Source: a virus. From it: a DNA stretch of 51,530 bases. Below, piece by piece: positions 6,246 to 46,579 of the stretch (position 1 is its first letter; the number at the start of each line of letters is the position of its first letter). A model generated the notes under the pieces. That model was given only the letters and a program-made list of their open reading frames with translations, had not been told where the DNA came from and searched no databases. The DNA lies in the IMG/VR virus record IMGVR_UViG_3300024226_000282, positions 1 to 51,530 of that record, one strand, 5' to 3'. The position numbers and the translations under genes are program-made.

Positions 6246-6554
6246 ATGGCAAAAGAATTAATACCCTTCAATGATAGAGTTATTATAAAACCTATAGAAG
6301 AAGATGAACAAATGTACGGTAATATAGTTGTACCTGATATGGGTAAGAACAAACCGGAAATGGGAGAAGTAATCTCAGTAGGACCAGGTCGTCAATCTGA
6401 ATTTGGTCAGTTTATTAGAGTAAATGCAAAAGTAGGAGATACTGTACTTATTCCAAAAATTGGATCTTTAAGAGTAGATTTTGATGGAGAGGAATACTTC
6501 ATAACACCAGACAAAGAAATTTTAGCAATAATTAAAGAATCAAACAATGAGTAA
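6246..6554 (+). CDS. groES: GroES co-chaperonin
   Basis: A 102-residue Cpn10 protein, the lid of the chaperonin cage. It starts with the canonical PFNDRVIIKPIEEDE strand, carries a mobile loop at about residues 17-33 with the hydrophobic anchor NIVVPD, and ends with the DKEILAII strand. Length and layout are those of bacterial GroES, unlike the diverged T4 gp31. It overlaps groEL by 8 bases, so the ring and its lid are translated together. Confidence 0.94.
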   Translation: MAKELIPFNDRVIIKPIEEDEQMYGNIVVPDMGKNKPEMGEVISVGPGRQSEFGQFIRVNAKVGDTVLIPKIGSLRVDFDGEEYFITPDKEILAIIKESNNE

Positions 6555-8184
6555 AAAAGTTATATTTTCAGACGAAGCAAGAGGGAAGCTAGCAAAAGGA
6601 GTAGATAAATTAGCAAATGCTGTAACAGCTACATTAGGACCTTCCGGAAGAAACGTTATTATAGAACAAGATATGGGGAATCCTATATCAACTAAAGACG
6701 GAGTAACAGTAGCTAAGTCAATCGAACTATCAAATAAGGTGCAAAATTTAGGAGCACAAATTGTTAAACAAGCTTCTATTAAGACAGCAGAGCAAGCAGG
6801 AGACGGAACAACTACATCTACACTTCTCGCACAATCTATGCTTTCAGAAGGTATAGACAAACTTAAGAAAGGTCAAAACGCAGTAGACATAAAAAGAGGT
6901 ATTGATGAAGCAACAAAAGAAGTTGTACAATATCTAAAAGAGTATTCAAAAGACATAACGGATGAAGAACAGCTAAAGCAAGTAGCTACTATCTCAGCTA
7001 ACAATGACACCGAAATAGGTGAGTTAATTTCCACTGCCATGGACAAAGTTGGCCGTGATGGGGTAGTAACAATCGAAGAGTCGCGAACAGGAGAAACATA
7101 TTTAGAAACTGTTGAAGGTATTCAATTCAGCAGAGGTTACAAGTCTCCTTACTTCGTCACAGATAATAGCTCAATGCAAGCTGTTCTTCAAGATCCGTTT
7201 ATACTTCTTACAGATAAGAAGATTAATAACATAAAAGAACTTCTTCCTATCTTAGAAGCATGTTCATCTCAAAATAAACAGCTGTTAATTATAGCAGATG
7301 AAATAGGAGGAGAGGCACTTTCTACCTTAGTAGTAAATAAGATGAGAGGTATCTTAGGAGTTGTAGCAGTTCAAGCACCTGATTTTGGAGACAGAAGAAA
7401 AGCAATATTAGAAGATATTGCAATACTAACTGGAGGAACAGTAGTATCTCATGAAAAAGGAATGAAACTTGATAAGTTTAATACTGACTGGTTAGGGAAA
7501 GCTAACAAGGTAACAGTTAGTAAAGATACTACAACAATTATCGATGCACAAGGAGAAGAAGCTGCAATAACTGATAGAGTAGAGGATATTAAGAGTTTAA
7601 TTGATAATAGTAATTCTAATTTTGAAATTGAAACTTTACAAGAGAGGTTAGCTAAGTTTATCGGCGGTGTATCTATTGTACACGTTGGTGGATTGACAGA
7701 AATAGAAATGAAAGAGAAGAAAGATAGAGTAGATGATGCACTCCACGCTACTAAAGCAGCCTTGGAAGAAGGAATTCTACCAGGTGGAGGTATCGCTCTC
7801 TTGAACTCTGCTATGATGCTTGCTGACCAAATTGGCGCCCAACCAGAAGAGTATCATCTAGGTTACGAAATTGTAATCTCAGCAATCGAAAGACCTTTCT
7901 ATAAAATACTATTAAATGCAGGATATACAGACAGCGATATAGGAGGTATAGAAGAACATATTAAAGAAGGAGGAGATGCCTGGTCAGGGTATAATCCTAG
8001 AGAAGAACAGTATGTAAATATGTTTGCTTCCGGTATTATTGATCCAACTAAAGTTACTAGGTTAGCATTAGAAAATGCAGCATCAGTTGCAGGAACGATG
8101 TTAATAACTGAAGCAGTGATTAGTAATAAAAAGGATAAAAAACAAGACCCAGCACAGGGTATTGATCCATCAATGATGATGTAA
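6547..8184 (+). CDS. groEL: GroEL chaperonin, complete
   Basis: A full-length 545-residue Cpn60. ATP-site motifs are intact: LGPSGRNV (30-37), KDGVTVAKSIEL (50-61), GDGTTT (85-90) and the hydrolysis aspartate D397 in RVDDALHATKAALEEG, followed by PGGGIALL. The C-terminus ends in SMMM and lacks the usual GGM repeat tail, which may alter the cage interior (inference). A paired GroES and complete GroEL is uncommon in phages; most carry only a co-chaperonin. It is coupled to groES upstream and overlaps the next start by one base. Confidence 0.95.
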   Translation: MSKKVIFSDEARGKLAKGVDKLANAVTATLGPSGRNVIIEQDMGNPISTKDGVTVAKSIELSNKVQNLGAQIVKQASIKTAEQAGDGTTTSTLLAQSMLSEGIDKLKKGQNAVDIKRGIDEATKEVVQYLKEYSKDITDEEQLKQVATISANNDTEIGELISTAMDKVGRDGVVTIEESRTGETYLETVEGIQFSRGYKSPYFVTDNSSMQAVLQDPFILLTDKKINNIKELLPILEACSSQNKQLLIIADEIGGEALSTLVVNKMRGILGVVAVQAPDFGDRRKAILEDIAILTGGTVVSHEKGMKLDKFNTDWLGKANKVTVSKDTTTIIDAQGEEAAITDRVEDIKSLIDNSNSNFEIETLQERLAKFIGGVSIVHVGGLTEIEMKEKKDRVDDALHATKAALEEGILPGGGIALLNSAMMLADQIGAQPEEYHLGYEIVISAIERPFYKILLNAGYTDSDIGGIEEHIKEGGDAWSGYNPREEQYVNMFASGIIDPTKVTRLALENAASVAGTMLITEAVISNKKDKKQDPAQGIDPSMMM

Positions 8185-11273: not shown

Positions 11274-12344
11274 ATGAAGAAACTAACCTTTATATTAATA
11301 CTACTCAGTAGTATAGTAAAAGCACAATCACCACTATGTCCTTCATCTGCACAAGCTTTTGGGTATGAACGTTTAAATTCGATAAATATAAATGGACAAA
11401 ATTACATTGTAAATACAGGTTGGACTGGACCAGGATATATAGACCATACAAATACCTTAGTTCCTACAATAAATGCCGGAGATGTAATTACTCTTAATTT
11501 TCAAGCTCAAACCCGAGGTAATTACCGACAGTACTTTAAATTATGGATTGATTATAATGGAAATGGAAATTTAAACGATTCAGGAGAACTAGTTCACTCT
11601 AGTAATAGTACGTGGAATGGAACTAGAAATTTCAATAAAACATTTACCGTTCCGCAAACAGTTTTCAATGGAGAAGTTTATATGAGGTTTATGATGGTAT
11701 ATTCTTCTTCTCCCAACTTATGTGGTAATTACTCATATGGAAATACAGTTGACTTCAAAACTACAATTACAGGAGCTGTTGATCCAATAAATCATAGTGG
11801 GTACGTTTACGGCGCTGAAGAAGAACCTTTAGAAGGAATCACAGTTCAACTTAAAACACAAAACAAAAATCAGGTTGGATTTAGTTACAATCTACACTCA
11901 GAAGCTGTAACAGATACAAATGGAGCTTATAGTTTTTCAACTAATTTAAATTATGATGATTACGATTACACTATAGATGTAGTGCCTCCTACATTATCAA
12001 TTCCAACTCTAAATGATATCAGTTACTTTACTAGTAAATTAATTAGTGGGGTTTATAATTCCAAAGATTATTGGAGAATGGATGTTAATAATGACGGGAA
12101 ATTTAGTGTTGCAGATTTATATTCTATGTTAGCTTACATGAATGGTATATTTACTCAGTATAGTAGTACTACACCTTCTACAAAAGTATTTCATTATCAA
12201 CAAACTCCTTACTTTTGGGACCCTTTAGATACTGATACTGATGATAAATCTGAAAATTTTGGATATGGAAGTTATAGTTTATTTGATAGAAGTAATGGAG
12301 ACTCTACTATATTCTATTTAATAAGAACCGGACACAGGAATTAG
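11274..12344 (+). CDS. Secreted GEVED-domain protein with dockerin-like repeat
   Basis: A 356-residue exported protein. Signal peptide residues 1-18 (ends VKAQ). Residues about 25-165 form a GEVED-type domain with the hallmark KLWIDYNGNGNLNDSGELV. Residues about 172-230 look like a carboxypeptidase-regulatory/SpaA-like beta sandwich (GYVYGAEEEPLEGITVQLK). Residues about 269-290 hold a dockerin-like calcium loop (WRMDVNNDGKFSVADLYSML). These are typical of secreted flavobacterial surface proteins, unusual in a phage. It starts the secreted block; the neighbouring cohesin-like proteins could be its binding partners (inference). Confidence 0.8.
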   Translation: MKKLTFILILLSSIVKAQSPLCPSSAQAFGYERLNSININGQNYIVNTGWTGPGYIDHTNTLVPTINAGDVITLNFQAQTRGNYRQYFKLWIDYNGNGNLNDSGELVHSSNSTWNGTRNFNKTFTVPQTVFNGEVYMRFMMVYSSSPNLCGNYSYGNTVDFKTTITGAVDPINHSGYVYGAEEEPLEGITVQLKTQNKNQVGFSYNLHSEAVTDTNGAYSFSTNLNYDDYDYTIDVVPPTLSIPTLNDISYFTSKLISGVYNSKDYWRMDVNNDGKFSVADLYSMLAYMNGIFTQYSSTTPSTKVFHYQQTPYFWDPLDTDTDDKSENFGYGSYSLFDRSNGDSTIFYLIRTGHRN

Positions 12345-12347
12345 TTA

Positions 12348-12355
12348 TATTTATA
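12348..12355 (+). promoter_or_regulatory. TATTTATA late-type motif
   Basis: TATTTATA followed by ATAAATTAATG, 28 bases before the 12383 start. It lacks the preceding C but has the same position and following A/T run as the 16945 copy. Confidence 0.5.
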
Positions 12356-12382
12356 ATAAATTAATGTTAAAATAAAATTACA

Positions 12383-13471
12383 ATGAAAAAAACAATTACC
12401 CTCATAACCGCATTACTAATCACAGTATTTACATATGGACAAACTACATCACCCGATGCAACTAAGCCGTATATAATTCTTGATTCTACTTATAATTTAG
12501 AGTCGGTTAATTCCTCAAATAATACTATAGTTGATATTTACTACGATAACACATCAGGTAACACAGTAAAAGGTATTCAATTCTCTTTCAGTTACGATAA
12601 AGATGTTTTTGACACACCAACTGTAACTTACAACAACACTTCAGGACCTGTAGGGTATATGTCTACAGATGTGGATGCAACAAACGGTATTGTAAAAGTC
12701 GTATGGGCCTATGATGGTGCTACTACTACCTTTGACCTTATTGCTGGTAATATGTTTGATGTTGAATTACCATTTAAATCTAGTTATACTAATGGTACAG
12801 TTGATGGGATTGACTTCACAAACAATTTAACTGCTTATTATGCACAAACTGATGGTACAGATGCTATTCTAGGCACATCAGATAACGGTGGTAACTTTAT
12901 AGAACCAGCATTTGATTATGTAGCAACTATTTTAAATAATGCAACAAACCCAGCAGAATTAATTCCTGTAATTTTACAGAAATCAGCAGATGGTAGTACT
13001 TGGGTAGATGTAGCTACAGATACAACAGAAGCCGATGGAACAGCAACATTCTCAGAGAATATAGATCAAGATTACTGGCAAGTTAGATTAAAAATTGCAA
13101 GTGGTTTAGATGCAAGTACAGCATTATCAGCAGCAGATGCAAATATGATTGCTCAAATAGCAGCAGGAGTACAAACAACATCAGGTATACAGTACTATAC
13201 CGGTAATACAAACCAAGCAAATGGTATTACGGTATCAGATTCTTATCTGTTATTTGCTAGATTAGCTCAAGGTTTAAGTGCTTATACAAATAACCCAGAT
13301 GTACTATTCTTTACTGAAGCTCAATACAACACTATTGATGCTGCTACCTCAGATCAATCTGGGACAATCTCAGGACAAGAAGAATTCTTATCACCACAGA
13401 TAAATGGAACTACAGCAGGTAATTTCTACTTACTAGTATTAGGTGATGCAAATGGTACAGGATTAAATTAA
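12383..13471 (+). CDS. Secreted cohesin-like protein with dockerin-like segment
   Basis: A 362-residue exported protein. Signal peptide residues 1-19 (ends TYGQ). Residues about 30-140 follow the cohesin pattern: NTVKGIQFSFSYDKDVF, a valine-rich middle and a final VELPFKSS strand. Residues about 185-230 are another beta-rich region. Residues about 250-300 (STALSAADANMIAQIAAG ... GITVSDSYLLFARLAQG) look like a degenerate duplicated dockerin. It is low in cysteine and rich in Thr, Asn and Asp, as secreted marine flavobacterial proteins are. It sits 4 bases before the next cohesin-like gene. Confidence 0.7.
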   Translation: MKKTITLITALLITVFTYGQTTSPDATKPYIILDSTYNLESVNSSNNTIVDIYYDNTSGNTVKGIQFSFSYDKDVFDTPTVTYNNTSGPVGYMSTDVDATNGIVKVVWAYDGATTTFDLIAGNMFDVELPFKSSYTNGTVDGIDFTNNLTAYYAQTDGTDAILGTSDNGGNFIEPAFDYVATILNNATNPAELIPVILQKSADGSTWVDVATDTTEADGTATFSENIDQDYWQVRLKIASGLDASTALSAADANMIAQIAAGVQTTSGIQYYTGNTNQANGITVSDSYLLFARLAQGLSAYTNNPDVLFFTEAQYNTIDAATSDQSGTISGQEEFLSPQINGTTAGNFYLLVLGDANGTGLN

Positions 13472-13474
13472 TAA

Positions 13475-14212
13475 ATGAAATCGTTATTAATATTTTTACT
13501 AACACTATCAACAGTAGCTCACTCTCAGGTCAAATTTAACGTACCTGAGATTGAGGTACCTGTTAGTACTTATATTAATTTACCGGTTGTAATCGAAACT
13601 AATAGCAACGATGTAGGTAGTTTAGAATTTGCACTAAATTATGACCCCACATACTTAGCCTTTGAAGATATATCGGTAACAGCTAAAGCTCAACAATGGT
13701 TAACCTACACTATGGACTGGCAAGGTGAAACAGTTAGATGGGGAGGATATGATGCTTCATTTGGTACTTATACAATAAACTCACCCACAGAACTATTCAC
13801 AGTTAGGTTTAAAGTAATTGATCAATCATGGGTAGAGATACCTATTACCATTGGAAGAAAAACCGCAGGAACTGAGTTAGGTTGGGATATAGAGGTTATA
13901 AGTACAGATGGGTATGTAAATAAAAGATCAATGCCCTTTGAAGTACCACCTATAGACGGCATATACGGAATAGCATACCCAGTACCTACTACCGGGCGTA
14001 TAACACTAGAGTTAACAGTACCCGAAAATGGAGAATATAAGGTTATAGTATCTGATTTTTTAGGTAAAAAACACGGTGTGTATAGTAAGAAGTTTTTCTC
14101 GGGGTATGTTTCTTTTAGAGTAGATGTTAGGGACCTTGCTACTGGTATCTATTTATTACAAGTAACTAACGGTAGGTTTGTTAAGACATTTAAAATTATT
14201 AAAAATGGGTAA
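13475..14212 (+). CDS. Secreted cohesin-like protein with T9SS C-terminal sorting domain
   Basis: A 245-residue exported protein. Signal peptide residues 1-17 (ends AHSQ). Residues about 20-130 form a cohesin-like sandwich (VGSLEFALNYDPTYLAFED is typical). Residues about 165-245 match the type A sorting domain of the Bacteroidetes type IX secretion system: AYPVPTTGRITLEL, YKVIVSDFLGKK, LATGIYLLQVTNG, and the final KTFKIIKNG. Such domains direct a protein through the host outer membrane and are normally cleaved on the surface. A phage gene carrying one is remarkable. It overlaps the next gene by 8 bases. Confidence 0.85.
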   Translation: MKSLLIFLLTLSTVAHSQVKFNVPEIEVPVSTYINLPVVIETNSNDVGSLEFALNYDPTYLAFEDISVTAKAQQWLTYTMDWQGETVRWGGYDASFGTYTINSPTELFTVRFKVIDQSWVEIPITIGRKTAGTELGWDIEVISTDGYVNKRSMPFEVPPIDGIYGIAYPVPTTGRITLELTVPENGEYKVIVSDFLGKKHGVYSKKFFSGYVSFRVDVRDLATGIYLLQVTNGRFVKTFKIIKNG

Positions 14213-14462
14213 AAAGAAAACATTTTTTTCGGAAATTAAAAACCAAATAGTAACAGGAATTGGATTAGTAATAACAGCAGGATTTGGATTATTAATAGCT
14301 AATATGCAATCTATATTTGAACCTAAAGAAGAAGTTCAACAACCACCAATGATAGAACAAACAATTAGCATTCCAGAAGGAGTTAAAGATACTTTAGTAA
14401 TAACTAAGACTATAAAAGTACAACCAGTCAAGACTAAGAAAGAAGAAGAAATATCATGGTAA
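14205..14462 (+). CDS. Single-pass membrane protein, 85 aa
   Basis: I chose the ATG at 14205, which overlaps the preceding stop by 8 bases, the genome's favourite coupling. A basic N-terminus (MGKKK) is followed by a transmembrane helix at about residues 16-36, then a proline- and lysine-rich tail (EEVQQPPMIEQ). The topology suggests a cytoplasmic start and periplasmic tail. No family recognised. It lies within the secreted block, so an inner-membrane partner of the export proteins is possible (inference). Confidence 0.6.
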   Translation: MGKKKTFFSEIKNQIVTGIGLVITAGFGLLIANMQSIFEPKEEVQQPPMIEQTISIPEGVKDTLVITKTIKVQPVKTKKEEEISW

Positions 14463-15163
14463 GAATATTTTTAATTATATCGATGTTACTAAGTTTTACT
14501 GCTAATGCTCAATTAGGTAAAACGGAGACAGAAAACTATAAGGGTAAATTTGAACAAGATGCAGATATAGATGAAGTATCTGATTATATGTTAGATTATC
14601 AATTACCAATTCAAGTACTGAACATTGGCTTTACACCAGAACTGTATGAATTTTATCCTGAATTAAGAGAGAATAGAGTGGGATTGGGTGTGAGTAATAT
14701 TACTCTATCTTATCTAGAATGGACTGACAGGTTTATATTTACAGAAGATAAAGAAGATATTAAACAAAGAATGGTAAAACAACATAAAGCTTCAGCTAAA
14801 GGTATATCTTCAAATGAGATTAAAGTTGTCGGTAATGTAATATTAGCAGAATACTTTACCTATGTTGAGATTTATGACTACTCAGTATCTGAAGAAGAAG
14901 AAATAACTAAAGACGGTATAAAGATTGTTCTAAAAACTATTATCGGTATGCAAGTGAGATTTGTAAATGCCGAGACTGGTTCCATACTAACAGGTTCCGG
15001 AAGTGGAGAAGCAGTTACAATAAAAAGATCTAATTTATTAGAAGGTTTGGATGAAGTTAAGTTCAATAAATCTACAATTGGAATAGCAACCAAAAAAGCT
15101 CTTGAATCAGCTTCAGCAAGGATCGTGAAAAAAATGATTAAGCGTGGCATCTTTAAAGAATAA
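14456..15163 (+). CDS. CsgG-family outer-membrane secretion protein
   Basis: A 235-residue exported protein resembling CsgG, the curli subunit exporter that assembles as a ring in the outer membrane. Signal peptide residues 1-18 (ends ANAQ). Family-like features are the long helix with RFIFTEDKEDIKQRM, the strand VVGNVILAEYFTYVEIYDY, the conserved VRFVNAETGSILTGSGSGEA, and the terminal helix ALESASARIVKKMIKRG. There is no lipobox cysteine, unlike E. coli CsgG. CsgA/B-like repeats are not visible, so the substrate is unknown. It overlaps the previous gene by 7 bases and the next by 20. Confidence 0.75.
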   Translation: MVRIFLIISMLLSFTANAQLGKTETENYKGKFEQDADIDEVSDYMLDYQLPIQVLNIGFTPELYEFYPELRENRVGLGVSNITLSYLEWTDRFIFTEDKEDIKQRMVKQHKASAKGISSNEIKVVGNVILAEYFTYVEIYDYSVSEEEEITKDGIKIVLKTIIGMQVRFVNAETGSILTGSGSGEAVTIKRSNLLEGLDEVKFNKSTIGIATKKALESASARIVKKMIKRGIFKE

Positions 15164-16502
15164 AATAATACTATTACTATTGAACGTTATACCTATGTTT
15201 GGTTTCTCTCAAACATGGAACTATACGTTTACCGATCCCTGTACCCTTAATCAACAAACAGTAACAAACACTATAGGTCAATCCATTGCTTTAAATTACT
15301 TTGGGAATGTACAGAGCTTTACAGAAAGTGATTTTACTAATGGTGTATTTGATAACTGGATTAATTCTGTAACTCAAATTAATTCATCATCACCATGTGA
15401 AAGCATTACACAGGTAATAGTTAACAATGCAAATAGTACGGTTGTAGCGACTACATTAACTGTTGTGACTAATATAATGTCCGTAATGGGAGGCAATATG
15501 TTACCACCAGCAGAAAGTATTAACAACTCATCTAATGGAAATGATTCTGATGAAGAAGCAGATGAGAAAAACACTAAAACAAATGGAAGCAATACAGATA
15601 AAAAAGGAAGCACAAACATTACTCAAACAGATAAAGGCAATCAAGAAGCCAAAGGAAATCAATCCTCTACTAAACCAAGCGGAGGATCTAATTCAAATAC
15701 AACTGGAGGGTCTAGCAATACAGATAAATCAGCTAAAACAGGAGAACAAAAGACTGAATCGCCTGTAGAAGATAACGAAGGGGCATCAACACAAGCTGTA
15801 GCTAACTCCTTAGCTAATGCTATAGATGGAGGAGATAACGAACAATCAAATGAATCAGGAAAAAACTCAGGTAGCTTAATAGCTTCAGGAGATATAGTCG
15901 TAATATCTAATCAAGATAATTCAAATGGAGAGCAATTTAGATTTGTTGGAAGTATTACACATTCCAACACAGATAATAGTAGAATAAAAGGAGCATTATT
16001 TACATATACATCAGTTACCAATGATGCTAGTATAACCTTATATAAATCGTGGATAAATCCAAAAAAGACTTTTAACTTAGTATTAGCTAACACAACACTA
16101 ACTAATTTTAAAACAGACGTAACCAACACTACAACAGCATTAGAATCTTTCCGATTCGGTAAGCAAAAGAAGTATACAGGTATGGCTGGAATAAACTACA
16201 CTTACGGTAAGCTCGGTGAAAGAAGTCTACAGAACTTATCATCAGTTGCTGGAGTACATAGAAACTTTAAGGTTAGTCCCAGAATATCAACAAGTTTTCT
16301 TATGCTAGGAGTGTACTCACCTTTTACTCAATATTATGAAGGTAAATGGTTTAATGCAGGATTATTAGTTGTACCTTTTAGTTCATGGGATATTAAAATA
16401 ACAAAAACATTTAAGTACAATATAAGCTTTACCGGAGTATGGCAGACATCTGGCAGTGCTTTAAACTATCAAATATTAACAGGAGGAAAAATAAACTTTT
16501 AA
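15144..16502 (+). CDS. Large exported protein with low-complexity linker and probable C-terminal barrel
   Basis: A 452-residue protein starting at GTG 15144, 20 bases inside the CsgG-like gene. The signal peptide ends near GFSQ (residue 23). Residues about 125-245 are a low-complexity Asn/Ser/Gly/Lys/Asp linker. Residues about 250-452 alternate short amphipathic strands and end in phenylalanine (GGKINF), as outer-membrane barrel proteins do. Residues about 25-110 form a separate cysteine-containing domain. Coupling with CsgG implies joint action, perhaps as an outer-membrane partner. Not assigned to a family. Confidence 0.6.
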   Translation: MASLKNKIILLLLNVIPMFGFSQTWNYTFTDPCTLNQQTVTNTIGQSIALNYFGNVQSFTESDFTNGVFDNWINSVTQINSSSPCESITQVIVNNANSTVVATTLTVVTNIMSVMGGNMLPPAESINNSSNGNDSDEEADEKNTKTNGSNTDKKGSTNITQTDKGNQEAKGNQSSTKPSGGSNSNTTGGSSNTDKSAKTGEQKTESPVEDNEGASTQAVANSLANAIDGGDNEQSNESGKNSGSLIASGDIVVISNQDNSNGEQFRFVGSITHSNTDNSRIKGALFTYTSVTNDASITLYKSWINPKKTFNLVLANTTLTNFKTDVTNTTTALESFRFGKQKKYTGMAGINYTYGKLGERSLQNLSSVAGVHRNFKVSPRISTSFLMLGVYSPFTQYYEGKWFNAGLLVVPFSSWDIKITKTFKYNISFTGVWQTSGSALNYQILTGGKINF

Positions 16503-16505
16503 ACT

Positions 16506-16943
16506 ATGAAACATTTAACATTATTACTATTACTTTTACCTACACTACTATTTTCACAAAATTGCTACGAAGTAGGTAGAGTTGTATCAAGAGTAGAAAC
16601 AGAAGATATAAGTCAAAAGAGAATTATATTCGGTATAAAGCAGATGGCAGAAGAAATACTATCAGAAAAGTACGACTTATGTCTTAACGGTACCCCTATC
16701 TTTATAGAGATTACATCAATCAAAGCTCCATCTACAGGGTTTAAGATAGGACCATGGGAAAGAAAGAAGAAAGTAACTCAGGTAAAATTAGTTATTATAA
16801 TAAGAGGAGAAGTAATAGAAGGAATCGGAATAGCAAAATCAACTGTTCAAGCAACATTCTTAGATTTAAATAATGAAAATCTTCCTTTTAGTAAAACTGT
16901 ATTTGCTTCAGCAGTAAAAAAAGCATTGGAAGATACTTTATAA
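16506..16943 (+). CDS. Exported small protein of the CsgG-like cluster
   Basis: A 145-residue protein with a signal peptide ending LLFSQ (residue 18), then a cysteine (NCYEVG). The mature part alternates helices and strands (PIFIEITSIKAPSTG, QVKLVIIIRGEVIEG) and ends in ASAVKKALEDTL, rather like the CsgG-like protein two genes upstream. It begins 3 bases after the barrel gene. Periplasmic accessory protein is a reasonable guess; no family recognised. Confidence 0.55.
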   Translation: MKHLTLLLLLLPTLLFSQNCYEVGRVVSRVETEDISQKRIIFGIKQMAEEILSEKYDLCLNGTPIFIEITSIKAPSTGFKIGPWERKKKVTQVKLVIIIRGEVIEGIGIAKSTVQATFLDLNNENLPFSKTVFASAVKKALEDTL

Positions 16944-16952
16944 CTATTTATA
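16944..16952 (+). promoter_or_regulatory. Late-type motif CTATTTATA
   Basis: CTATTTATAATAAATT, overlapping the stop of the previous gene by no more than a base and 19 bases before the 16972 start. Confidence 0.6.
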
Positions 16953-16971
16953 ATAAATTAAAACTAAAGAG

Positions 16972-18177
16972 ATGAAAAAATTATTAGTATTATTTACAGT
17001 ATTACTTTCAACACAAGTATGGGCACAGGAAGAAAAGCCGGGCTTCTTTAAATCTATATATACAGATTTCTTAAAATACGGTACAGTATACGGAGCAGGA
17101 GATATATCCAATTCTGTTGAAGCAGAAGAACAAACATATTTCCTTAGAACTAATCCTGATGGAAGTTTATATTCTATACCGGATGTAGTTAACAATACAG
17201 AAGTATTTCCTTTTGATTATAGATATGGATTCGGAATAAGAAAATTAGCTAGATTTGATTACGAAAGAAAACCTAAGAACTTTTATGATGGTACTGAAGA
17301 GCAGTTAGTATTTTCAGCACCAACATCAGCTGTACAGGGACTCGAATATTTATTTCATTTTGAGAAAGAAAGATGGAGAGGGCAGGATTTCACTAATTAT
17401 AATTTCTTTTTAAAACACACTGGAAAGTACCATATACTAAAAGTACAATCTAGATCAGTAGAGAAAATTAACTTAAAATTTAACTCAGCTGAACTTAGAG
17501 CTAGATTACCAATAGGTAAGAAGTTTTCTATATCAGCAGGTGCTATAGCTAGAGGACATGAAAGAGCATATGGATATAATCCAATAGAGATTTGGTTAAA
17601 TGAAACAGATGCAGATGGCAATCCAGTTAATCAATGGTATCAATTAGGATATGAAAATGGATACCAAGATGTTTTTTACACTCAAACAAGCACTGACCCA
17701 ACCACAGGTGAAGAAATAACTACACAGGATTGGTATTGGATAGATGAAGAAGGAACACAAGTCGCATCATCAGACTTAGACTTCAGAGAAAGAATAATGC
17801 CATCACTTATGAATGAATTTAATGGATTAGCTTGGGATGAATTAGATTCATGGGTAGAAGTAGCACCTATAGTAGGATTAGATTTCTACCACTACAAAAG
17901 AGATTTTTGGTTCCATGGATATGCTAACTACATTCTACCTTACCATAGATACATAAAAGGTGATGAAGAAGCATCGTACTTAAATAGAAACAATTGGGGT
18001 AAAGGTGGATTGAGACAAGATGCAGAATTAGAGCAATGGTCTGATTATTCATTTGGAGCATCATTAGGTACTAAAATAGGGAAGAACTTAGGTATATTTA
18101 TACAAGGTGAATATTCTAAAATGTGGGACAGTAAATTATATCAAACAACATTTGGTTTAAATTACTCTTTTAAATAA
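16972..18177 (+). CDS. Probable outer-membrane beta-barrel protein
   Basis: A 401-residue exported protein. Signal peptide residues 1-19 (ends VWAQ). The mature part is rich in aromatic residues on alternating positions, with many predicted strands and acidic loops (TSTDPTTGEEITTQDWYW). The last strand, QTTFGLNYSFK, is the kind that closes an outer-membrane barrel. No enzyme motif is visible. Its own late motif precedes it, so it may be made in large amounts late in infection. It could be a pore, receptor mask or structural protein; the sequence does not decide. Confidence 0.6.
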   Translation: MKKLLVLFTVLLSTQVWAQEEKPGFFKSIYTDFLKYGTVYGAGDISNSVEAEEQTYFLRTNPDGSLYSIPDVVNNTEVFPFDYRYGFGIRKLARFDYERKPKNFYDGTEEQLVFSAPTSAVQGLEYLFHFEKERWRGQDFTNYNFFLKHTGKYHILKVQSRSVEKINLKFNSAELRARLPIGKKFSISAGAIARGHERAYGYNPIEIWLNETDADGNPVNQWYQLGYENGYQDVFYTQTSTDPTTGEEITTQDWYWIDEEGTQVASSDLDFRERIMPSLMNEFNGLAWDELDSWVEVAPIVGLDFYHYKRDFWFHGYANYILPYHRYIKGDEEASYLNRNNWGKGGLRQDAELEQWSDYSFGASLGTKIGKNLGIFIQGEYSKMWDSKLYQTTFGLNYSFK

Positions 18178-18183
18178 TATAAA

Positions 18184-18468
18184 ATGGCAAAACAAATAGG
18201 AGAGGAAACTAAAATTACTTTAGACCTCAAAACAATAGGTATAGTTTTATTCGGTCTTGCAACTGTTATCGGAATGTGGTTTTCACTTCAAGCAGATATA
18301 GAAGAAGCAAAAGAACTTCCGGAACCTGAAATTCAAAGGATAGAGTTTCAAATGAAAGATGAAGCAATTAGAGATGCTATCATTAATACTCAGGATGATG
18401 TAGAAGAAATTAAGAATCAGCTTAATAAGATTGATGAGAGACTCTTTGATTTACAAAAAAGAAACTAA
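18184..18468 (+). CDS. Membrane-anchored coiled-coil protein, 94 aa
   Basis: One transmembrane helix at about residues 17-37, then a long heptad-patterned helix (VEEIKNQLNKIDERLFDL) to the end. The shape resembles spanin-like or scaffold-like small phage proteins. It begins 6 bases after the barrel gene and ends one base before the next start. No specific family recognised. Confidence 0.55.
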   Translation: MAKQIGEETKITLDLKTIGIVLFGLATVIGMWFSLQADIEEAKELPEPEIQRIEFQMKDEAIRDAIINTQDDVEEIKNQLNKIDERLFDLQKRN

Positions 18469-18469
18469 T

Positions 18470-18871
18470 ATGAAAAAGTTTATAGTTATAGCACTGGTGC
18501 TTATTACAAGCTCAATTTACGGTCAACAGATTTTAACTGATGATAATTTTGAACAAGCTGTAGAAGGTAGATCGGCTTTTCAAGATGATAACATTTCGAT
18601 AGTCGTCGTAGAATTTTGGGCATCCTTTAATGATGACAATTCTTTTGAACATTGGGATAAAATAGAAGGAGTTAAATACTATAGATGCGATATCGCTAAA
18701 GCACCAAAAGCTAAAAAGAAACATAAAGTCAGAACAATCCCACACATCATAATATTTAAAGACGGTTTTGACGAAATACATTTTAAAGCAGGTTTAGATT
18801 TCACAATCTCACAATCACTAGAAGATATACAAAAAGAGATTGATGAATTGAAAAAGGAAAGTAAATTTTAG
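18470..18871 (+). CDS. Exported thioredoxin-fold protein lacking the CxxC active site
   Basis: I chose the ATG at 18470, which opens a clear signal peptide (ends IYGQ, residue 19). The 133-residue protein has the thioredoxin order: VVVEFWASF strand and turn, then VKYYRCDIA, then VRTIPHIIIFKDG with the cis-proline P91. Where thioredoxins have WCGPC, this reads WASFNDDN with no cysteine, so disulphide exchange is impossible. A folding or binding role in the periplasm is more likely. It ends the secreted block. Confidence 0.7.
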   Translation: MKKFIVIALVLITSSIYGQQILTDDNFEQAVEGRSAFQDDNISIVVVEFWASFNDDNSFEHWDKIEGVKYYRCDIAKAPKAKKKHKVRTIPHIIIFKDGFDEIHFKAGLDFTISQSLEDIQKEIDELKKESKF

Positions 18872-18983: not shown

Positions 18984-19220
18984 ATGGCAAACGCAGTAGC
19001 TTGTATGATTGCAATAAATGATGTTAAATCCTCAGTTCAAGGAAATGATCCTAGAACCTGGATGAAAGCATGCGCAATAGAAACTTTATTGAAAGGTAAA
19101 AGCGGTAAGCATTTCAAAAATTGCTTAATAGGTAAAATAGAATCAACTAAAGAACACATTGAAGACCCAGCAGGGTATGCTGAGGAACTATATAATGAAA
19201 TTAAAAATAAATGCAGATAA
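18984..19220 (+). CDS. Hypothetical protein, 78 aa
   Basis: Not recognised. A soluble helical protein with four cysteines (C8, C31, C47, C77), possibly two disulphides or a metal site, although there is no signal peptide. It overlaps the putative endolysin start by 10 bases, so it is probably co-expressed with the lysis genes. Confidence 0.55.
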   Translation: MANAVACMIAINDVKSSVQGNDPRTWMKACAIETLLKGKSGKHFKNCLIGKIESTKEHIEDPAGYAEELYNEIKNKCR

Positions 19221-19831
19221 ATATGAACTGTTACACGAGAGAAGAAATAGAAGAGACGATGAAGAGTAAAGGTTACAAGTACTTTACTGGAGGAGATTAT
19301 GACGTAAATATAATAGGAGTAAGAAACTCTAACACTAATAACGAAGTTACAAATAAATTTGACGACTGTATAACACTATCTTATAAAGATAATGGAGAGT
19401 GGAAATTTAAATGTTATAAAAGCACAACAGACCCAGGTTCACATTGGGAAAGGAATTTATTAAATAAAGACGGAGTAGCAATACTAAAACCAGGTCAATA
19501 TAGAGGTTCTCATAAAATAGGATTACACCAAGGTAAATACGAAGCACTAAGACAGAAGTCACCTGTAAAAGTCTACAGAGATAATAATAAAGACGGTAAA
19601 TACGATATGATTGAAGAGAATGTACATGAAGGTATATTTGGAATCAATATTCATAAAGCTGGAAAGTTTGTGAATGGTTCAACTCAGATTGATAAATGGT
19701 CAGCAGGTTGTCAAGTATTTTCTAAAGAATCTGATTTTAATGAATTTATGGCAATTATGCATAAAGCATCAGATAAGTACGGTAACTCTTTTTCCTACAC
19801 TCTTTTAGAAAGTAAAGATATAGTTGCTTAA
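19211..19831 (+). CDS. YkuD-like (L,D-transpeptidase-type) putative endolysin
   Basis: A 206-residue protein whose C-terminal half carries H148 and, 15 residues later, SAGC (164-167), close to the H-x(14-17)-(S/T)-H-G-C signature of YkuD peptidases. C167 would be the nucleophile; alanine replaces the signature histidine. The sequence GINIHKAGKF before it fits the family. N-terminal residues 1-90 are unassigned. No signal peptide is present, so export would need a holin. Position just before a spanin-like pair supports a cell-wall lysis role (inference). Confidence 0.6.
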   Translation: MQINMNCYTREEIEETMKSKGYKYFTGGDYDVNIIGVRNSNTNNEVTNKFDDCITLSYKDNGEWKFKCYKSTTDPGSHWERNLLNKDGVAILKPGQYRGSHKIGLHQGKYEALRQKSPVKVYRDNNKDGKYDMIEENVHEGIFGINIHKAGKFVNGSTQIDKWSAGCQVFSKESDFNEFMAIMHKASDKYGNSFSYTLLESKDIVA

Positions 19832-19854
19832 TTGAATTATTATTCTTATATTAA
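19824..19854 (+). promoter_or_regulatory. Early-type promoter of a leaderless gene
   Basis: TTG at 19824-19826 inside the end of the endolysin-like gene, 20 bases, TATATTAA at 19847-19854. ATG follows at 19858, so the transcript is expected to be leaderless or nearly so. Confidence 0.7.
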
Positions 19855-19857
19855 AGT

Positions 19858-20229
19858 ATGGGCACACAACAAAGCTATACAAGCAGGTATTTATTATGCG
19901 CAATCTTAGGAGGATTTGTAGCATATATGATATGGAATAATCCTTCAATTGATGTAGATATAAAAGCTTACCAAACTCAAATAAATATTTTACAGAGTAG
20001 AATAGATTCAATACAAACTAAAAATAGCTATCTACAAGTAGAAGCAGATTCGTTAAATACTGAGTTGGATAAGTTTAGCAATAAAATAAACTTATTAAAT
20101 ACAAAGATATATGTTATTAAAAAAGAAACTGAACAGAAGCTTAACGCTATTGATACTTTTGGTGGCTCTCAGCTTCAAGAGTTTTTCTCAAAACGTTACC
20201 AAAGACAGTACAAAGATAGTATTAAGTAA
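19858..20229 (+). CDS. Inner-membrane coiled-coil protein, spanin-like (Rz-type)
   Basis: A 123-residue protein with a transmembrane helix at about residues 10-26 and then an almost uninterrupted coiled coil (residues 38-100, SLNTELDKFSNKINLLNTK). This is the layout of an inner-membrane spanin. A second exported coiled-coil gene begins inside it in another frame, the classic Rz/Rz1 arrangement. Sequence similarity to known spanins is not claimed. Confidence 0.55.
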   Translation: MGTQQSYTSRYLLCAILGGFVAYMIWNNPSIDVDIKAYQTQINILQSRIDSIQTKNSYLQVEADSLNTELDKFSNKINLLNTKIYVIKKETEQKLNAIDTFGGSQLQEFFSKRYQRQYKDSIK

Positions 20230-23457: not shown

Positions 23458-23661
23458 ATGAAAAATTCTGAAAAAAGGTTAACGACCGTTCGTATTGAAG
23501 ATGATTTATTCCAAGAGTTTAAATACCAATGCATAAAAAATAAATTTTCTTTTCAAAAGCTTGCCTCCCGTAGTATTTTTCTTTATCTTACAGATAAGGA
23601 GTTTAGAGAAGGTATACATAAAATAAGTAATATTAATATAGAACAATTAGATGACAAATAG
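23458..23661 (+). CDS. Ribbon-helix-helix DNA-binding protein
   Basis: A 67-residue protein with an N-terminal beta ribbon (RLTTVRIEDDLFQEFK) and two helices (FQEFKYQCIKNKF, SFQKLASRSIFLYL), the layout of Arc/MetJ-type repressors that bind DNA as dimers. It stands at the head of the sugar cassette, right after the late motif, and overlaps the first glycosyltransferase by 11 bases. It may control this operon (inference). Confidence 0.75.
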   Translation: MKNSEKRLTTVRIEDDLFQEFKYQCIKNKFSFQKLASRSIFLYLTDKEFREGIHKISNINIEQLDDK

Positions 23662-25099
23662 AGAAGGTTATATAAAGAAAGAAGATAGAAAAAAGATTCT
23701 TCTACTTTGTGATGATATTAGAATGCACTCAGGTATCGCAACTATGGGTAAAGAGTTTGTATTTGGGTTAGCTCATAAGTTTAACTGGGTACATGTAGCA
23801 GGAGCATTAAAACATCCAGATGCTGGAAAAGGGCAAGATGTATCTAATGAAGTAAATAAACTTACCAACATGACTGACTCAGACGTTAAACTGATTCCTT
23901 ATAATGGATATGGAGACGTTGGTTTAGTTAGGAGTCTTATAGCTCAAGAGAAACCTGATGCTATAATGATTTTTACTGACCCTAGATATTGGACATGGTT
24001 ATTTGATATTGAAAGAGAAATTAGATCGCATATACCTATTATGTACCTAAACATATGGGATGATTACCCTGCACCACTTTACAATAAAGTATACTACAAT
24101 TCCTGTGATTTATTAATGGGTATATCAAAACAAACTGTTAACATTAATAAATTGGTATTAGGAGAAGATGCTAAAAGTAAGATCATCAGATACGTACCTC
24201 ACGGTATAGATGAGAATATGTTCTTTAAGATTCATAAAGATGATGAGCAGTTTAAAGGTTTCCAGGAATTTAAAAACTCAGTATTTGAGAACCGTACAGA
24301 TATAGAATACGTAGTTATGTTTAATTCACGTAACATAAGAAGAAAGAGCGTACCAGATCTAATTTTTGCTTATAGACTATTCTGCGATAAGATAGGAAAG
24401 GAAGAAGCTAAAAAATGTGCTTTAATACTCCATACTCAAAGTGTAGATCAAAACGGTACAGACTTAAGAGCAGTTAGAGAGAACCTATGTGATCCAGAAT
24501 ATGTTAATGTATATTTCTCGGAAGGTAAATTAACAACACCTCAAATGAATTGGTTATATAATTTAGCAGACTTAGTTGTTTTACCTTCTTCTAACGAAGG
24601 ATGGGGATTAGCATTGACAGAAGCAATGATGTCAGAAACTATGATTGCAGCTAACGTAACAGGAGGTATGCAAGACCAAATGAGATTTACTGATGATAAA
24701 GGAGAATGGTTTACACCGAGTAAGGATATACCTTCTAATCATAGAGGTACTTATAAAGAACATGGTGAATGGTCTATACCGATCTTTCCAAGTAACATCT
24801 CATTAGTTGGGTCAGTTCCCACACCTTATATATTTGACGATAGATGTTCAGCAGAAGATATAGCAGAAGCAATATTTAAGTCTTTTAGTATGACACCTGA
24901 AGATCGTTTAAAGAAAGGTAAGAAAGGTAGAGAATGGGTAACATCAGAAGAAGCACAGATGTCTTCTAAAAATATGTCAAAGAATATTGGTAACTGTATT
25001 GATGAATGTTTTGAAAACTTCATACCAAGACCTAAATTTGACTTTATAAAGGTAGAAGACCTTGCACCTAAATACACAGAACATAAATTAATTTACTAA
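23651..25099 (+). CDS. Glycosyltransferase family 4-type
   Basis: A 482-residue GT-B enzyme. The N-terminal half begins KILLLCDDIRMHSGIATMGK, the glycine loop that binds the acceptor side. The C-terminal half has YVPHGID, VMFNSRNIRRKS and the nucleotide-sugar motif SNEGWGLALTEAMM (E-x7-E). It retains the donor-binding site, so activity is expected. Donor and acceptor are unknown. First enzyme of the cassette. Confidence 0.88.
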   Translation: MTNREGYIKKEDRKKILLLCDDIRMHSGIATMGKEFVFGLAHKFNWVHVAGALKHPDAGKGQDVSNEVNKLTNMTDSDVKLIPYNGYGDVGLVRSLIAQEKPDAIMIFTDPRYWTWLFDIEREIRSHIPIMYLNIWDDYPAPLYNKVYYNSCDLLMGISKQTVNINKLVLGEDAKSKIIRYVPHGIDENMFFKIHKDDEQFKGFQEFKNSVFENRTDIEYVVMFNSRNIRRKSVPDLIFAYRLFCDKIGKEEAKKCALILHTQSVDQNGTDLRAVRENLCDPEYVNVYFSEGKLTTPQMNWLYNLADLVVLPSSNEGWGLALTEAMMSETMIAANVTGGMQDQMRFTDDKGEWFTPSKDIPSNHRGTYKEHGEWSIPIFPSNISLVGSVPTPYIFDDRCSAEDIAEAIFKSFSMTPEDRLKKGKKGREWVTSEEAQMSSKNMSKNIGNCIDECFENFIPRPKFDFIKVEDLAPKYTEHKLIY

Positions 25100-44846: not shown

Positions 44847-45066
44847 AATGACCAAAGATAAAACAACGTTGAAGTTAATAGAGGAGTTAAATGAATTAGC
44901 TACAGTATTACTTCAGAACTATAATAAGCCTAAGAAGGAACATACAATAGAGATACAAGATGAAATAGCAGATGTTAAGCTTTGGTTGAACATTGTAGAG
45001 AAACGCTATGACAAAGAGTATATCGATAAAAGAATAAAGGGTAAGATTAAAAAGTATAAGCTATGA
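44836..45066 (+). CDS. MazG-like NTP pyrophosphohydrolase-type protein
   Basis: A 76-residue all-alpha protein with EELNE (E16, E17, E20) and DEIADVKLW (E43, D46), the metal-binding E-x2-E and E-x2-D pairs of MazG-like hydrolases that remove abnormal NTPs or lower alarmone-type signals. MazG proteins occur in many marine phages. Basic C-terminus. Confidence 0.7.
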   Translation: MAYKMTKDKTTLKLIEELNELATVLLQNYNKPKKEHTIEIQDEIADVKLWLNIVEKRYDKEYIDKRIKGKIKKYKL

Positions 45067-45164
45067 TAAAGGCAATAAAAAGAATATTAAGAGATATGTG
45101 GATGGGTATAAAGATAGCAAATGAGAACTATCTTAATGGTAAGACTAATCAAGGTAAATTCTAA
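45063..45164 (+). CDS. Tiny basic peptide, 33 aa
   Basis: Overlaps the MazG-like stop as ATGA. Amphipathic basic helix (AIKRILRDMWMGIKIANENY). First of five tiny tandem frames (45063-45618), each starting within a few bases of the previous stop. Confidence 0.42.
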   Translation: MIKAIKRILRDMWMGIKIANENYLNGKTNQGKF

Positions 45165-45166
45165 AG

Positions 45167-45277
45167 ATGAGTAACGAAGAACAATATGAAGTTAGCGCAA
45201 AAGTAGTATTCATATGCTGTTCCTTTGTTGGATTAGTTACACTTTTAACACTATTAGCATTAGCAATCAAACCATAA
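45167..45277 (+). CDS. Tiny membrane peptide, 36 aa
   Basis: One transmembrane helix (CSFVGLVTLLTLLALAI) after a short acidic start. Second of the tandem tiny frames. Single-helix phage peptides can act on membrane proteins; unknown here. Confidence 0.45.
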   Translation: MSNEEQYEVSAKVVFICCSFVGLVTLLTLLALAIKP

Positions 45278-45282
45278 CAAAG

Positions 45283-45375
45283 ATGAGTAAAGAATCAATA
45301 CCGGATTTGATATTAGCTATAGTAGTGTTAATGTTATGGAATGGGTACTTAATATATAAAATGCGAAAGAGATGA
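45283..45375 (+). CDS. Tiny membrane peptide, 30 aa
   Basis: One hydrophobic helix (LILAIVVLMLWNGYLIY) with a basic tail (KMRKR), so the tail is probably cytoplasmic. Overlaps the next frame as ATGA. Confidence 0.45.
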   Translation: MSKESIPDLILAIVVLMLWNGYLIYKMRKR

Positions 45376-45485
45376 TCAATAGCGGAAGAGAATGGGATTG
45401 GTTAGATGATATAATAGAAGATGGTATAGATGATTATGTCTCAGTACCTACAGGAAGTAAACCGCCTACATGTATAGAAGATTAA
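45372..45485 (+). CDS. Tiny acidic peptide, 37 aa
   Basis: Acidic, with WDWLDDIIEDGIDD, ending in a short proline segment. Coupled to the membrane peptide upstream by ATGA. Unknown. Confidence 0.42.
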   Translation: MINSGREWDWLDDIIEDGIDDYVSVPTGSKPPTCIED

Positions 45486-45486
45486 T

Positions 45487-45618
45487 ATGGAGTTTAAAGT
45501 ATATGAGTATAAACCTTTAACAATAGGACTATGGAGACCATTTGTAATAGAGGAAGGCTTTATAAAGGACTATATAAGAAGGACTTCAATAGAGACAGAT
45601 AATATAATACTATTTTAA
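45487..45618 (+). CDS. Small hypothetical protein, 43 aa
   Basis: Soluble mixed-charge peptide (FKVYEYKPLTIGLWRPFVI). Last of the tandem tiny frames. Unknown. Confidence 0.42.
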   Translation: MEFKVYEYKPLTIGLWRPFVIEEGFIKDYIRRTSIETDNIILF

Positions 45619-45633
45619 AGTAAAATAAGAGTT

Positions 45634-45831
45634 ATGACAATACAAGAACAATTAAGAGGATGGGGTATGGACGTAGAAGCTTTGAAGGGGGAGGGGGCGT
45701 TTCTCTCTCCACCGAAGGTGCCACGCGCATTTTCGACGAATGTCTCAAATGATCCAACCCAACCCAACAATCTAAAGGAAGAGGAATGGTGTCATTACGG
45801 AGGTCTGCCATCACCTAAAGCATATATGTAA
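45634..45831 (+). CDS. Hypothetical protein, 65 aa, interrupted by repeat copy 3
   Basis: Starts TAAGAGTTATGACA, close to the common start context. Residues about 19-34 (EGAFLSPPKVPRAF) come from the GC-rich repeat, while the flanks have ordinary AT-rich codons. The protein may be a small gene carrying a repeat insertion that preserved the frame. Confidence 0.45.
   Translation: MTIQEQLRGWGMDVEALKGEGAFLSPPKVPRAFSTNVSNDPTQPNNLKEEEWCHYGGLPSPKAYM
45691..45734 (+). repeat. GC-rich hairpin repeat, copy 3
   Basis: GAGGGGGCGTTTCTCTCTC, hairpin CACC-GAA-GGTG (45710-45720), CCACGCGCATTTTCG. The arm sequence differs from copies 1 and 2 (CGAC/GTCG) at two positions on each side, and all pairs are kept. 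Confidence 0.75.
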
Positions 45832-45843
45832 GCATGCTAAAGC

Positions 45844-45939
45844 ATGTGTCTGAGAGTGTACGACTTTGATCAATACTACATATCATTAGATATAAGATCA
45901 ATGGAGAGATACCGTGGTAGTAAGGTAGATAGAGGGTAA
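45844..45939 (+). CDS. Doubtful small frame, 31 aa
   Basis: An ATG-to-TAA frame (MCLRVYDFDQYYISLDIR at its start) in otherwise empty DNA. No start box or promoter close by, so doubtful. Confidence 0.2.
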   Translation: MCLRVYDFDQYYISLDIRSMERYRGSKVDRG

Positions 45940-46142
45940 ACAACCAAGTGTTAGCCTAAAGCATATCAATTAAGTGTAACGTATATATTAATATATTGAT
46001 ATACATATAGTTTTATATTGAGATATATTGTTTGTATAGAATAATACCTATAGGATGTATGGAATGAAAGGAAATTATATCAGGCATGCACCCCTCTCCA
46101 ATATTTTTTTTTCTATATAGAGGAAAATAACCCACCAAACAG
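45940..46142. other. AT-rich noncoding gap
   Basis: About 200 bases (more than 360 if the doubtful frame before it is not real) without a convincing gene. It contains AT palindromes such as TATATTAATATA near 45985 and ends in a T-run at 46105-46113 before the next promoter. No clear terminator stem, iteron set or origin signature was found. Confidence 0.4.
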
Positions 46143-46173
46143 TTGTCTATATGCGTAAATTTTCTTATATTAA
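46143..46173 (+). promoter_or_regulatory. Early-type promoter
   Basis: TTG 46143-46145, 20 bases, TATATTAA 46166-46173; the leader ends ATAAATAAAGGTTATG at 46202. Confidence 0.76.
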
Positions 46174-46201
46174 GGTATATTAATAAAGATAAATAAAGGT
46201 T

Positions 46202-46507
46202 ATGACGTATTCAGACAAAGTTAAGAGTTCAAAAGTAATGTTAGACATCATCAAGTCCATGGAGGATGAAGAGAGTATTAAGTTTACCTACGGCAAAGGT
46301 TATAAAGGAGAGCCTGAGGTATATAAGATCAATTGTTATAAGGATGGTATAGATGGTAAAACGTCTTATAGTATCTGGAATAACTTTAATGGTATGAATG
46401 TATCTTCTTTGGGTCCTACTACGGTTAAGTGTTATACATTTGATATGATGTCTCAGAGAACTACATATAACTTCCCGTTAAATGAAATGATAATGGTTGA
46501 AGGATAG
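46202..46507 (+). CDS. Hypothetical protein, 101 aa
   Basis: Not recognised. Soluble protein with a beta-rich middle (YSIWNNFNGMNVSSLGP). Own promoter and start box, so well supported as a gene. Confidence 0.58.
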   Translation: MTYSDKVKSSKVMLDIIKSMEDEESIKFTYGKGYKGEPEVYKINCYKDGIDGKTSYSIWNNFNGMNVSSLGPTTVKCYTFDMMSQRTTYNFPLNEMIMVEG

Positions 46508-46528
46508 ATAAATCCTATGGGGTATTAG

Positions 46529-46559: not shown

Positions 46560-46579
46560 AGTATAAAGCAATAAAGGTT

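Follow-up and report, generated by a model that had tools for sequence, protein, structure and literature searches.

A ten-gene block of cohesin, dockerin-type, T9SS-tailed and predicted CsgG-fold proteins in a relative of Flavobacterium phage immuto: a candidate surface-display apparatus

Results

A close-packed block with signal-like N-termini

We analysed a block of ten genes (11274 to 18871, named here by their first positions) in the window, i.e., the whole 51,530-nucleotide stretch of the virus record IMG/VR IMGVR_UViG_3300024226_000282. The block encodes, among others, a protein with a dockerin-type module, a protein with a cohesin and a type IX secretion system (T9SS) sorting domain, and a predicted CsgG-fold protein. 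All ten genes called in the original prediction, which was made from the letters alone, were recovered; they lie on a single strand (+) and are close-packed, with intergenic gaps of -20 to +38 bases. Eight of them (11274, 12383, 13475, 14456, 15144, 16506, 16972 and 18470) satisfy a crude signal rule (basic start, hydrophobic run and small residues; membrane anchors can pass it as well as signal peptides) as compared to 8 of the 76 non-nested + strand open reading frames (ORFs) in the rest of the window (Fisher p = 9e-6), in line with the eight signal peptides that had been claimed. Besides 11274, 13475 and 18470, no block gene matches a Pfam or NCBIfam family over its cut-off. A PHROG search of the ten proteins gave weak matches only, with no head or tail PHROG at E <= 1; most PHROGs are of unknown function.

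Relatives of the block

Relatives were found via 14456. At least 150 stretches encoding 14456 relatives were seen in one scan and at least 551 in another; 80 loci (given as L numbers) were kept from each, and domain hidden Markov models (HMMs) were run on 158 loci, including overlapping loci of the same contigs. For counting we used 94 representatives, one per distinct 14456-type protein (the locus with most genes); because loci are cut by contig ends, absence of a gene from a locus is not equivalent to its loss. The first 18 relatives share the order 11274-12383-13475-14205-14456-15144-16506 up to the ends of their contigs. Among the 94 representatives, 93 contain a 15144-type gene, 92 a 14205-type gene, 90 a cohesin scaffold (see below), 79 a 16506-type gene and 76 a separate dockerin-head protein, and the order 14205-14456-15144 is found in 91. 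The comparison of gene order among related phages, which had been suggested as a check, thus came out in favour of a conserved arrangement.

The window is a fragment of a phage of ~167 kb that is kin to the cultivated Flavobacterium phage immuto. Its right end (45000-51530) recurs at 100% identity in a nearly identical 167,696-base contig, on which tblastn finds the block proteins at 100% identity, save one at 99.8%. The closest cultivated kin are the immuto phages (~160 kb) of Flavobacterium sp. LMO8, the host named in the immuto record. vB_FspM_immuto (three strains, four records, e.g. NC_055915) carries the same block in the same order at gp013-gp022, with identities to the window of 34% for the lectin head protein (C-half), 55% for 12383, 49% for the cohesin/T9SS protein, 62% for 14456, 47% for 15144 and 52% for 16506, plus an annotated thioredoxin-domain protein. 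Immuto differs in having a C-type lectin head where the window has a GEVED head, and in having no homologue of 16972 at E <= 1e-3. The immuto record names the lectin, cohesin and thioredoxin domains only, and the other genes of the block are hypothetical. When a collection of 50,697 phage records was queried with two 14456-type proteins, 13475, one fused scaffold and one lectin-head protein, each query matched the three strains of immuto (four records) and nothing else.

A bacterial origin of the block was considered and rejected: no 14456 relative was found among genome contigs (163 pattern matches, none confirmed). Out of 64 matches to 12383 in genome contigs, one was confirmed, on a metagenome-assembled-genome contig that bears the phage block itself (L032 6859-9994, carrying counterparts of 11274 to 14205 with identities of 72-89%); this is probably a phage contig put in the bin.

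Variable heads on a common C-terminal module

The first gene (g1, 11274..12344, +) encodes a putative secreted head-dockerin protein, in which a variable head is followed by a CarboxypepD-like/dockerin-type module of ~185 residues. The head is a GEVED domain (11532..11759, +; residues 87-162) that matches PF20009 with 52.7 bits (cut-off 24.4); the CarboxypepD-like region and the dockerin are both under cut-off. The module contains a calcium-loop motif at 12081..12116 (+; D270 x N272 x D274 ... D281), and the ligands of this loop are conserved in the 65 head proteins scanned, with D at position 1 in 61, N at position 3 in 65, D or N at position 5 in 56 and D at position 12 in 65.

The same C-terminal module is common to proteins with heads of ~140 to 815 residues (complete-looking ORFs). 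Families found in the 65 head proteins, where one protein may have several, are Lectin_C (36), Laminin_G_3 (16), GEVED (6), Ig_7 (4), PA14 (2) and Pentaxin (1); Laminin_G_3 is a member of a lectin/glucanase superfamily. No clear enzyme family is present among the 10 Pfam families of these 65 proteins, and some heads are without a family. 11274 and its counterpart in L009/L090 (loci of the same contig) have modules that are 85% identical and heads without detectable similarity. Among 293 pairs with dockerin modules of >=60% identity, there are 40 in which no alignment spans 40% of the query head; 25 of these 40 were inspected, and 23 still align partly, often with length differences, so full replacement of the head is clear for few pairs only (e.g. 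the window-type/L090 pair). L050 contains two head proteins in tandem. A diversity-generating retroelement behind the variable heads was also considered; no reverse transcriptase (PF00078, E <= 0.001) was found in 11 out of 11 chosen contigs, and such an element is therefore unlikely.

A putative cohesin scaffold with a T9SS tail

The next two genes encode the two halves of a putative scaffold. The N-terminal half, 12383 (g2, 12383..13471, +), would consist of a beta domain (possibly cohesin-like) and a dockerin-type module, and the anchoring half, 13475 (g3, 13475..14212, +), of a cohesin domain (13529..13831, +; residues 19-119) and a T9SS type A C-terminal sorting domain (13976..14197, +; residues 168-241). 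The cohesin matches PF00963 with 34.9 bits (cut-off 24.1) and, by sequence profile, the solved cohesin 2xdh (E 0.0015). The sorting domain matches TIGR04183 with 42.4 bits (cut-off 23) and PF18962 with 36.0 bits (cut-off 27), and the N-terminus of 13475 fits a Sec signal peptide by the crude rule and inspection.

Two cohesin-like proteins had been proposed, of which 13475 stands; for 12383 there is no cohesin match in Pfam or NCBIfam. The profile match between 12383 and 13475 (hhalign, prob 62) includes the signal peptides; when the 12383-type region of fused relatives was compared without signal peptides, prob was 0.6 and 0.2, and a cohesin in 12383 is not established from the sequences. A PDB sequence search with 12383 gave nothing credible (best E 0.47). 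Residues 164-357 of 12383 resemble the C-half of the immuto lectin protein (25% identity, E 2e-8). An HMM of the C-halves of g1-type proteins matches the 12383-type proteins of two loci, L009 at E 3e-10 and L050 at E 1e-7, and also a fragmentary one in L063, with no match to the 12383 of the window itself (hhalign prob 25).

12383- and 13475-type proteins form one protein of ~640 residues in 67 of the 94 representatives and are split in 22; since they are fused in relatives, 12383 is functionally tied to 13475. The fused scaffold has the order beta domain, dockerin-type module, cohesin and T9SS tail, and one fused protein aligned with immuto falls in three pieces, on the lectin, 12383-type and 13475-type genes. 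We collected 117 fused ORFs (48 after 90% collapsing), and among 64 non-redundant scaffolds (the 48 fused ones, not picked by the tail, and 16 split ones, picked by the tail HMM) the T9SS tail is found in all 64 and the cohesin in 57 (E <= 0.001). PF00404, the Pfam dockerin, reaches E <= 0.001 in 3 of these 64 scaffolds and in 1 of the 65 head proteins. In 11 out of 11 chosen contigs of 150-309 kb there is exactly one PF18962 tail per contig (the count covers this kind of T9SS tail), always on an ORF of scaffold length (245-250 or 629-646 residues). The presence of the tail in all scanned scaffolds, and its single occurrence per long contig, argue for delivery to the cell surface.

A predicted CsgG fold in 14456

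14456 (g5, 14456..15163, +) had been called a CsgG-family exporter, and the fold part of this claim is supported. The AlphaFold2 model of 14456 built with 44 sequences has a pLDDT (predicted local distance difference test) of 77 and a pTM (predicted template modelling score) of 0.71; a first model, with 9 similar sequences, had a pLDDT of 40 and was discarded. Using Foldseek against the PDB, CsgG is the best match (E 6e-8, prob 1.00), the top 17 matches are all CsgG/curli-complex (E 6e-8 to 7e-6) and are followed by PelC, and CsgG/curli-complex chains account for 25 of the 34 matches at E <= 0.001. VIA superimposes the model on CsgG with Z 12.5 and 3.0 A over 157 residues, and the best match in a viral library is an annotated phage CsgG.

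At the sequence level the family part of the claim found less: 14456 has no match to CsgG in NCBIfam, and a PDB sequence search returned no CsgG (a single match, at E 0.45). A global profile comparison of 26 family members with nine CsgG proteins (E. coli, six plasmids and two phages, our own pick from 52 plasmid and 7 phage records) gave prob 33% (P 8e-5, 225 columns). A CsgG match in one of three genomes from the group of the metagenome-assembled genome mentioned above was left aside. In the controls, nine sibling families gave P 0.68 or worse, the reversed alignment P 0.68, and 100 column shuffles scores of at most 14.9 vs 25.5 for the real match. A lipobox is found in 45 of 93 distinct 14456 relatives. 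14456 is a CsgG-fold protein according to a model of moderate confidence, and from this fold we infer that it may act as a pore.

Other genes of the block

Between the scaffold and 14456 lies the small gene 14205 (g4, 14205..14462, +; 7-base overlap with 14456), whose protein has one hydrophobic segment (by eye) and a C-terminal Trp; all 100 distinct complete proteins of the family share this Trp. Judging from their sequences, 14205-type proteins may link the inner membrane to a complex formed by the CsgG-fold protein. 15144 (g6, 15144..16502, +) encodes a putative secreted protein of 452 aa with a low-complexity middle and overlaps 14456 by 20 bases. The overlap with a barrel-like partner had been predicted, and the overlap is there; the barrel character is not established for 15144, nor for 16972, which had been called a second barrel. 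The C-terminal residue of 94 distinct complete 15144-type members is Phe in 32, Leu in 35 and Gln in 26. A PDB sequence search with 15144 gave nothing credible (best E 0.049), and its comparison with CsgF gave prob 1-40 depending on the mode, the best over ~30 columns that include the signal peptide. 16506 (g7, 16506..16943, +) encodes a small putative secreted protein that resembles the C-terminal half of 14456 (hhalign prob 29, P 6e-4, 58 columns). The rebuilt 16506 HMM, to which weaker matches were added, also caught 14456-type proteins, and ORFs were labelled by best score. In the PDB sequence search the best match of 16506 was to ribosomal protein S1 (E 0.0016), which we took as chance.

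The last three genes are accessory. 16972 (g8, 16972..18177, +) encodes a putative secreted protein of 401 aa, barrel-like by eye, with no profile over cut-off; it has a homologue in 4 of 80 loci, and among the first 18 relatives in L004, L005, L009 and L018. 18184 (g9, 18184..18468, +) encodes a small membrane/coiled-coil protein with no family over cut-off and weak PHROG matches, among them a Rz-like spanin at E 0.05. 18470 (g10, 18470..18871, +; likely start ATG 18470) encodes a putative secreted thioredoxin-fold protein, as had been predicted, matching PF00085 with 26.3 bits (cut-off 23.5), and a related thioredoxin gene is found in 16 of 80 loci.

Some relatives have additional genes inside the block. 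In L055 (6376-7305) and L110 (7018-8001) an alanine-rich protein of ~310-330 residues with 'SAEAHA'-type repeats is encoded between the 14205- and 14456-type genes, adjoining a small membrane protein. In L121 (8713-9063) a membrane protein of 116 residues is encoded between the 14456- and 15144-type genes, and several more large contigs have a spacing like that of L121 between these two genes.

Genomic neighborhood

On the 5' side of the block, the window contains a DNA polymerase and GroEL (6246-8184; phrog_5725, E 3e-162), the latter preceded by a GroES-sized gene; immuto has annotated GroES then GroEL in the same order, and replication and nucleotide genes 5' of the block. Directly 3' of the block in the window (19211-20229) are two lysis genes, one for an endolysin that matches phrog_33083 at E 5e-18 and one for a Rz-like spanin that matches phrog_739 at E 4e-5. 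In L019 and L020 an endolysin homologue is also close on the 3' side, <=0.4 kb from the 16506-type gene, and the annotated endolysins of immuto are ~5 and ~27 kb past the block. Late expression of the block, which was part of the original prediction, is merely hinted at by the adjoining lysis genes in the window, L019 and L020. Further on, the window has a glycosyltransferase gene (23651-25099) that is 63% identical to an immuto glycosyltransferase, and this immuto counterpart is the first in a series of genes annotated as glycosyltransferase or sugar-modifying. A phage with sugar editing plus lectin display could perhaps mask its own receptor.

Discussion

Proposed mechanism

The block might be a phage-encoded surface-display apparatus on infected Bacteroidota cells; for this reading, including the steps and benefit that follow, which are predicted from sequences and models, we judge the chances to be about even. 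Sec would carry the block proteins into the periplasm, as the signal-like N-termini suggest. The scaffold would leave by the host T9SS and be fixed on the cell surface, consistent with the known role of the sorting domain, and the head proteins would dock on the scaffold cohesin through their dockerin-type module; the dockerin module of the scaffold itself could chain scaffolds together. Since the heads vary and many are lectin-type, the resulting coat would bind sugars that differ between phages. 14456, together with 14205 (a candidate inner-membrane anchor), 15144 and 16506, would probably form an outer-membrane complex. Because the head proteins have no sorting tail, this CsgG-fold complex probably helps them out, i.e., it would let out or assemble the head proteins; this is the weakest step. 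The likeliest benefit would be masking or capture of surface glycans, e.g. against superinfection, with aggregation nearly as likely; superinfection exclusion would be the simplest use of glycan masking or binding. The original prediction had already pictured a phage-borne secreted block working as a surface machine. The composition is kept across many large phages and the T9SS domain favours surface delivery, so the secreted block stands and the machine may do so. Three features had been missed or merely hinted at: the sorting domain of 13475, the GEVED domain heading 11274, and the fact that relatives have 12383 and 13475 fused.

A number of observations weigh against the proposed apparatus. 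With regard to docking, the dockerin match of 11274 is under the Pfam cut-off (PF00404, 15.3 vs 22.9 bits), and the second calcium loop that classical dockerins have cannot be made out by eye, leaving a single loop; the dockerin-like protein first predicted is thus backed by its conserved calcium loop and not by the Pfam threshold. With regard to export, 14456 has no match to PF03783 (CsgG) at E <= 1 in the Pfam scan, and there is none at E <= 10 in the 167-kb relative. The Foldseek TM-scores (template modelling) of the 14456 model vs CsgG are 0.36-0.52 with a root mean square deviation of >10 A, which makes the placement of parts of the model uncertain. Local profile comparison of the 14456 family with CsgG gave prob 13-17 over ~62 columns, and with more sequences aligned the prob of the global match dropped from 33 to 13.7 (P 5e-4). 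The lipobox is absent from 14456 of the window and from 20 out of 20 distinct copies with its N-terminal motif. A CsgG-type channel would need to pass a multidomain head protein of ~37 kDa (from its length). Finally, no CsgE-like match was found in profile comparisons, and there is no support for CsgF past the signal-peptide region; a curli system was rejected on these two results.

A fuller version of the surface-display reading would be a two-route surface organelle, in which the scaffold travels via the host T9SS and the dockerin-lectins via a phage CsgG-type pore, with assembly outside, cassette-like exchange of heads, and a viral cellulosome-like coat for receptor masking or cell capture that is widespread in large Bacteroidota phages. 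We put this version forward tentatively and regard it, taken whole, as rather doubtful.

Alternative explanations

The same display apparatus might serve adhesion or clumping, making infected cells stick to sister cells, algae or particles so that the progeny meet hosts. Many lectin-type heads, and their variation, would suit this purpose, and 'sibling capture' was proposed for the pelagimyophage curli genes in the accessible text of PMC7029224; on the other hand, the csgGF-bearing Melnitz showed no clumping in its authors' cultures, as given in the accessible text of PMC9004378. We consider this purpose possible and somewhat unlikely.

Lysis, or the timing of lysis, would be a different use: 14456, 14205 and 15144 would make an envelope pore, and the cohesin and dockerin genes would merely be co-transcribed. 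The endolysin and spanin-like genes directly 3' of the block in the window, the endolysin homologues near the block in L019 and L020 and the weak spanin match of 18184 all point in this direction. So do the 14205-type proteins, which all end in Trp and in roughly half of the relatives are followed by a lipoprotein, loosely like a spanin pair, and a lysis role was proposed for the Melnitz CsgGF (PMC9004378, accessible text). However, a cohesin scaffold stands beside the 14456-type gene in 90 of 94 representatives, for which co-transcription alone is insufficient, and the endolysins of immuto lie at a distance of ~5 and ~27 kb; we find this explanation improbable.

That the products belong to the virion, as fibres or capsid decoration, and have N-termini which merely look like signals is very unlikely: lectin-type domains occur in phage fibres and 12383 has a sub-threshold match to Pfam family PF06141, a phage minor tail protein (E 0.084, 13.6 vs 25 bits), but the T9SS tail is present in 64 of 64 scaffolds, the signal-like N-termini are dense, no head or tail PHROG is among the weak matches of the ten proteins, and the immuto block lies at 10.5-17 kb after replication and nucleotide genes, with annotated capsid, terminase and tail genes at 82-154 kb (linear record).

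Comparison to known systems

A cellulosome is built from an anchored cohesin scaffold and exchangeable dockerin-bearing modules. The block is cellulosome-like in its cohesin scaffold and swappable dockerin proteins, and unlike it in its lectin-type heads, its T9SS tail, its being phage-borne and the lack of a clear enzyme (65 heads). Among phages, Cryophage has genes with T9SS type A tails that vary between phage variants, one with PA14, and superinfection is mentioned as a possible role of this cargo (PMC7468147, accessible text). There, according to the same text, each variable cargo has its own tail and no cohesin or dockerin is described, whereas the heads of the window block have a dockerin-type module, the tail is on a shared cohesin scaffold, and a CsgG-fold protein is present in addition. 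The crAss-like gut phages have BACON carbohydrate-binding-type domains with or near T9SS tails; the accessible text of PMC6949934 places the BACON genes beside the head gene section and describes no cohesin, dockerin or CsgG. Pelagimyophages and Melnitz encode CsgG and CsgF in a small operon, of unknown role in the accessible text of PMC7029224 and PMC9004378. These CsgG proteins (39.7% and 36.8% identical to E. coli CsgG) are CsgG by sequence and come with CsgF, whereas 14456 is recognised by fold plus a weak profile match and comes with a cohesin/T9SS scaffold instead.

A cohesin-dockerin scaffold is absent from the descriptions in the accessible text of all four papers (PMC7468147, PMC6949934, PMC7029224 and PMC9004378), and a literature search that left most subscription papers outside found no report of a cohesin-dockerin scaffold combined with a T9SS tail and CsgG. 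The original prediction knew of no described phage system of this composition; within this search it holds for the combination, and not for phage T9SS cargo and phage CsgG, each already in print.

Changes that phages make to the outside of Bacteroidota cells are poorly known. Direct tests of the block are possible, since one relative, immuto, is cultivated on Flavobacterium. If the surface-display reading is true, finding the module in hundreds of stretches from metagenomes would imply that large aquatic phages routinely hijack the T9SS for display, with exchangeable lectins as the variable part. Docking, if confirmed, would show the cellulosome principle at work in a virus, and the block would be a source of new dockerin-cohesin pairs, lectins and a CsgG-type protein.

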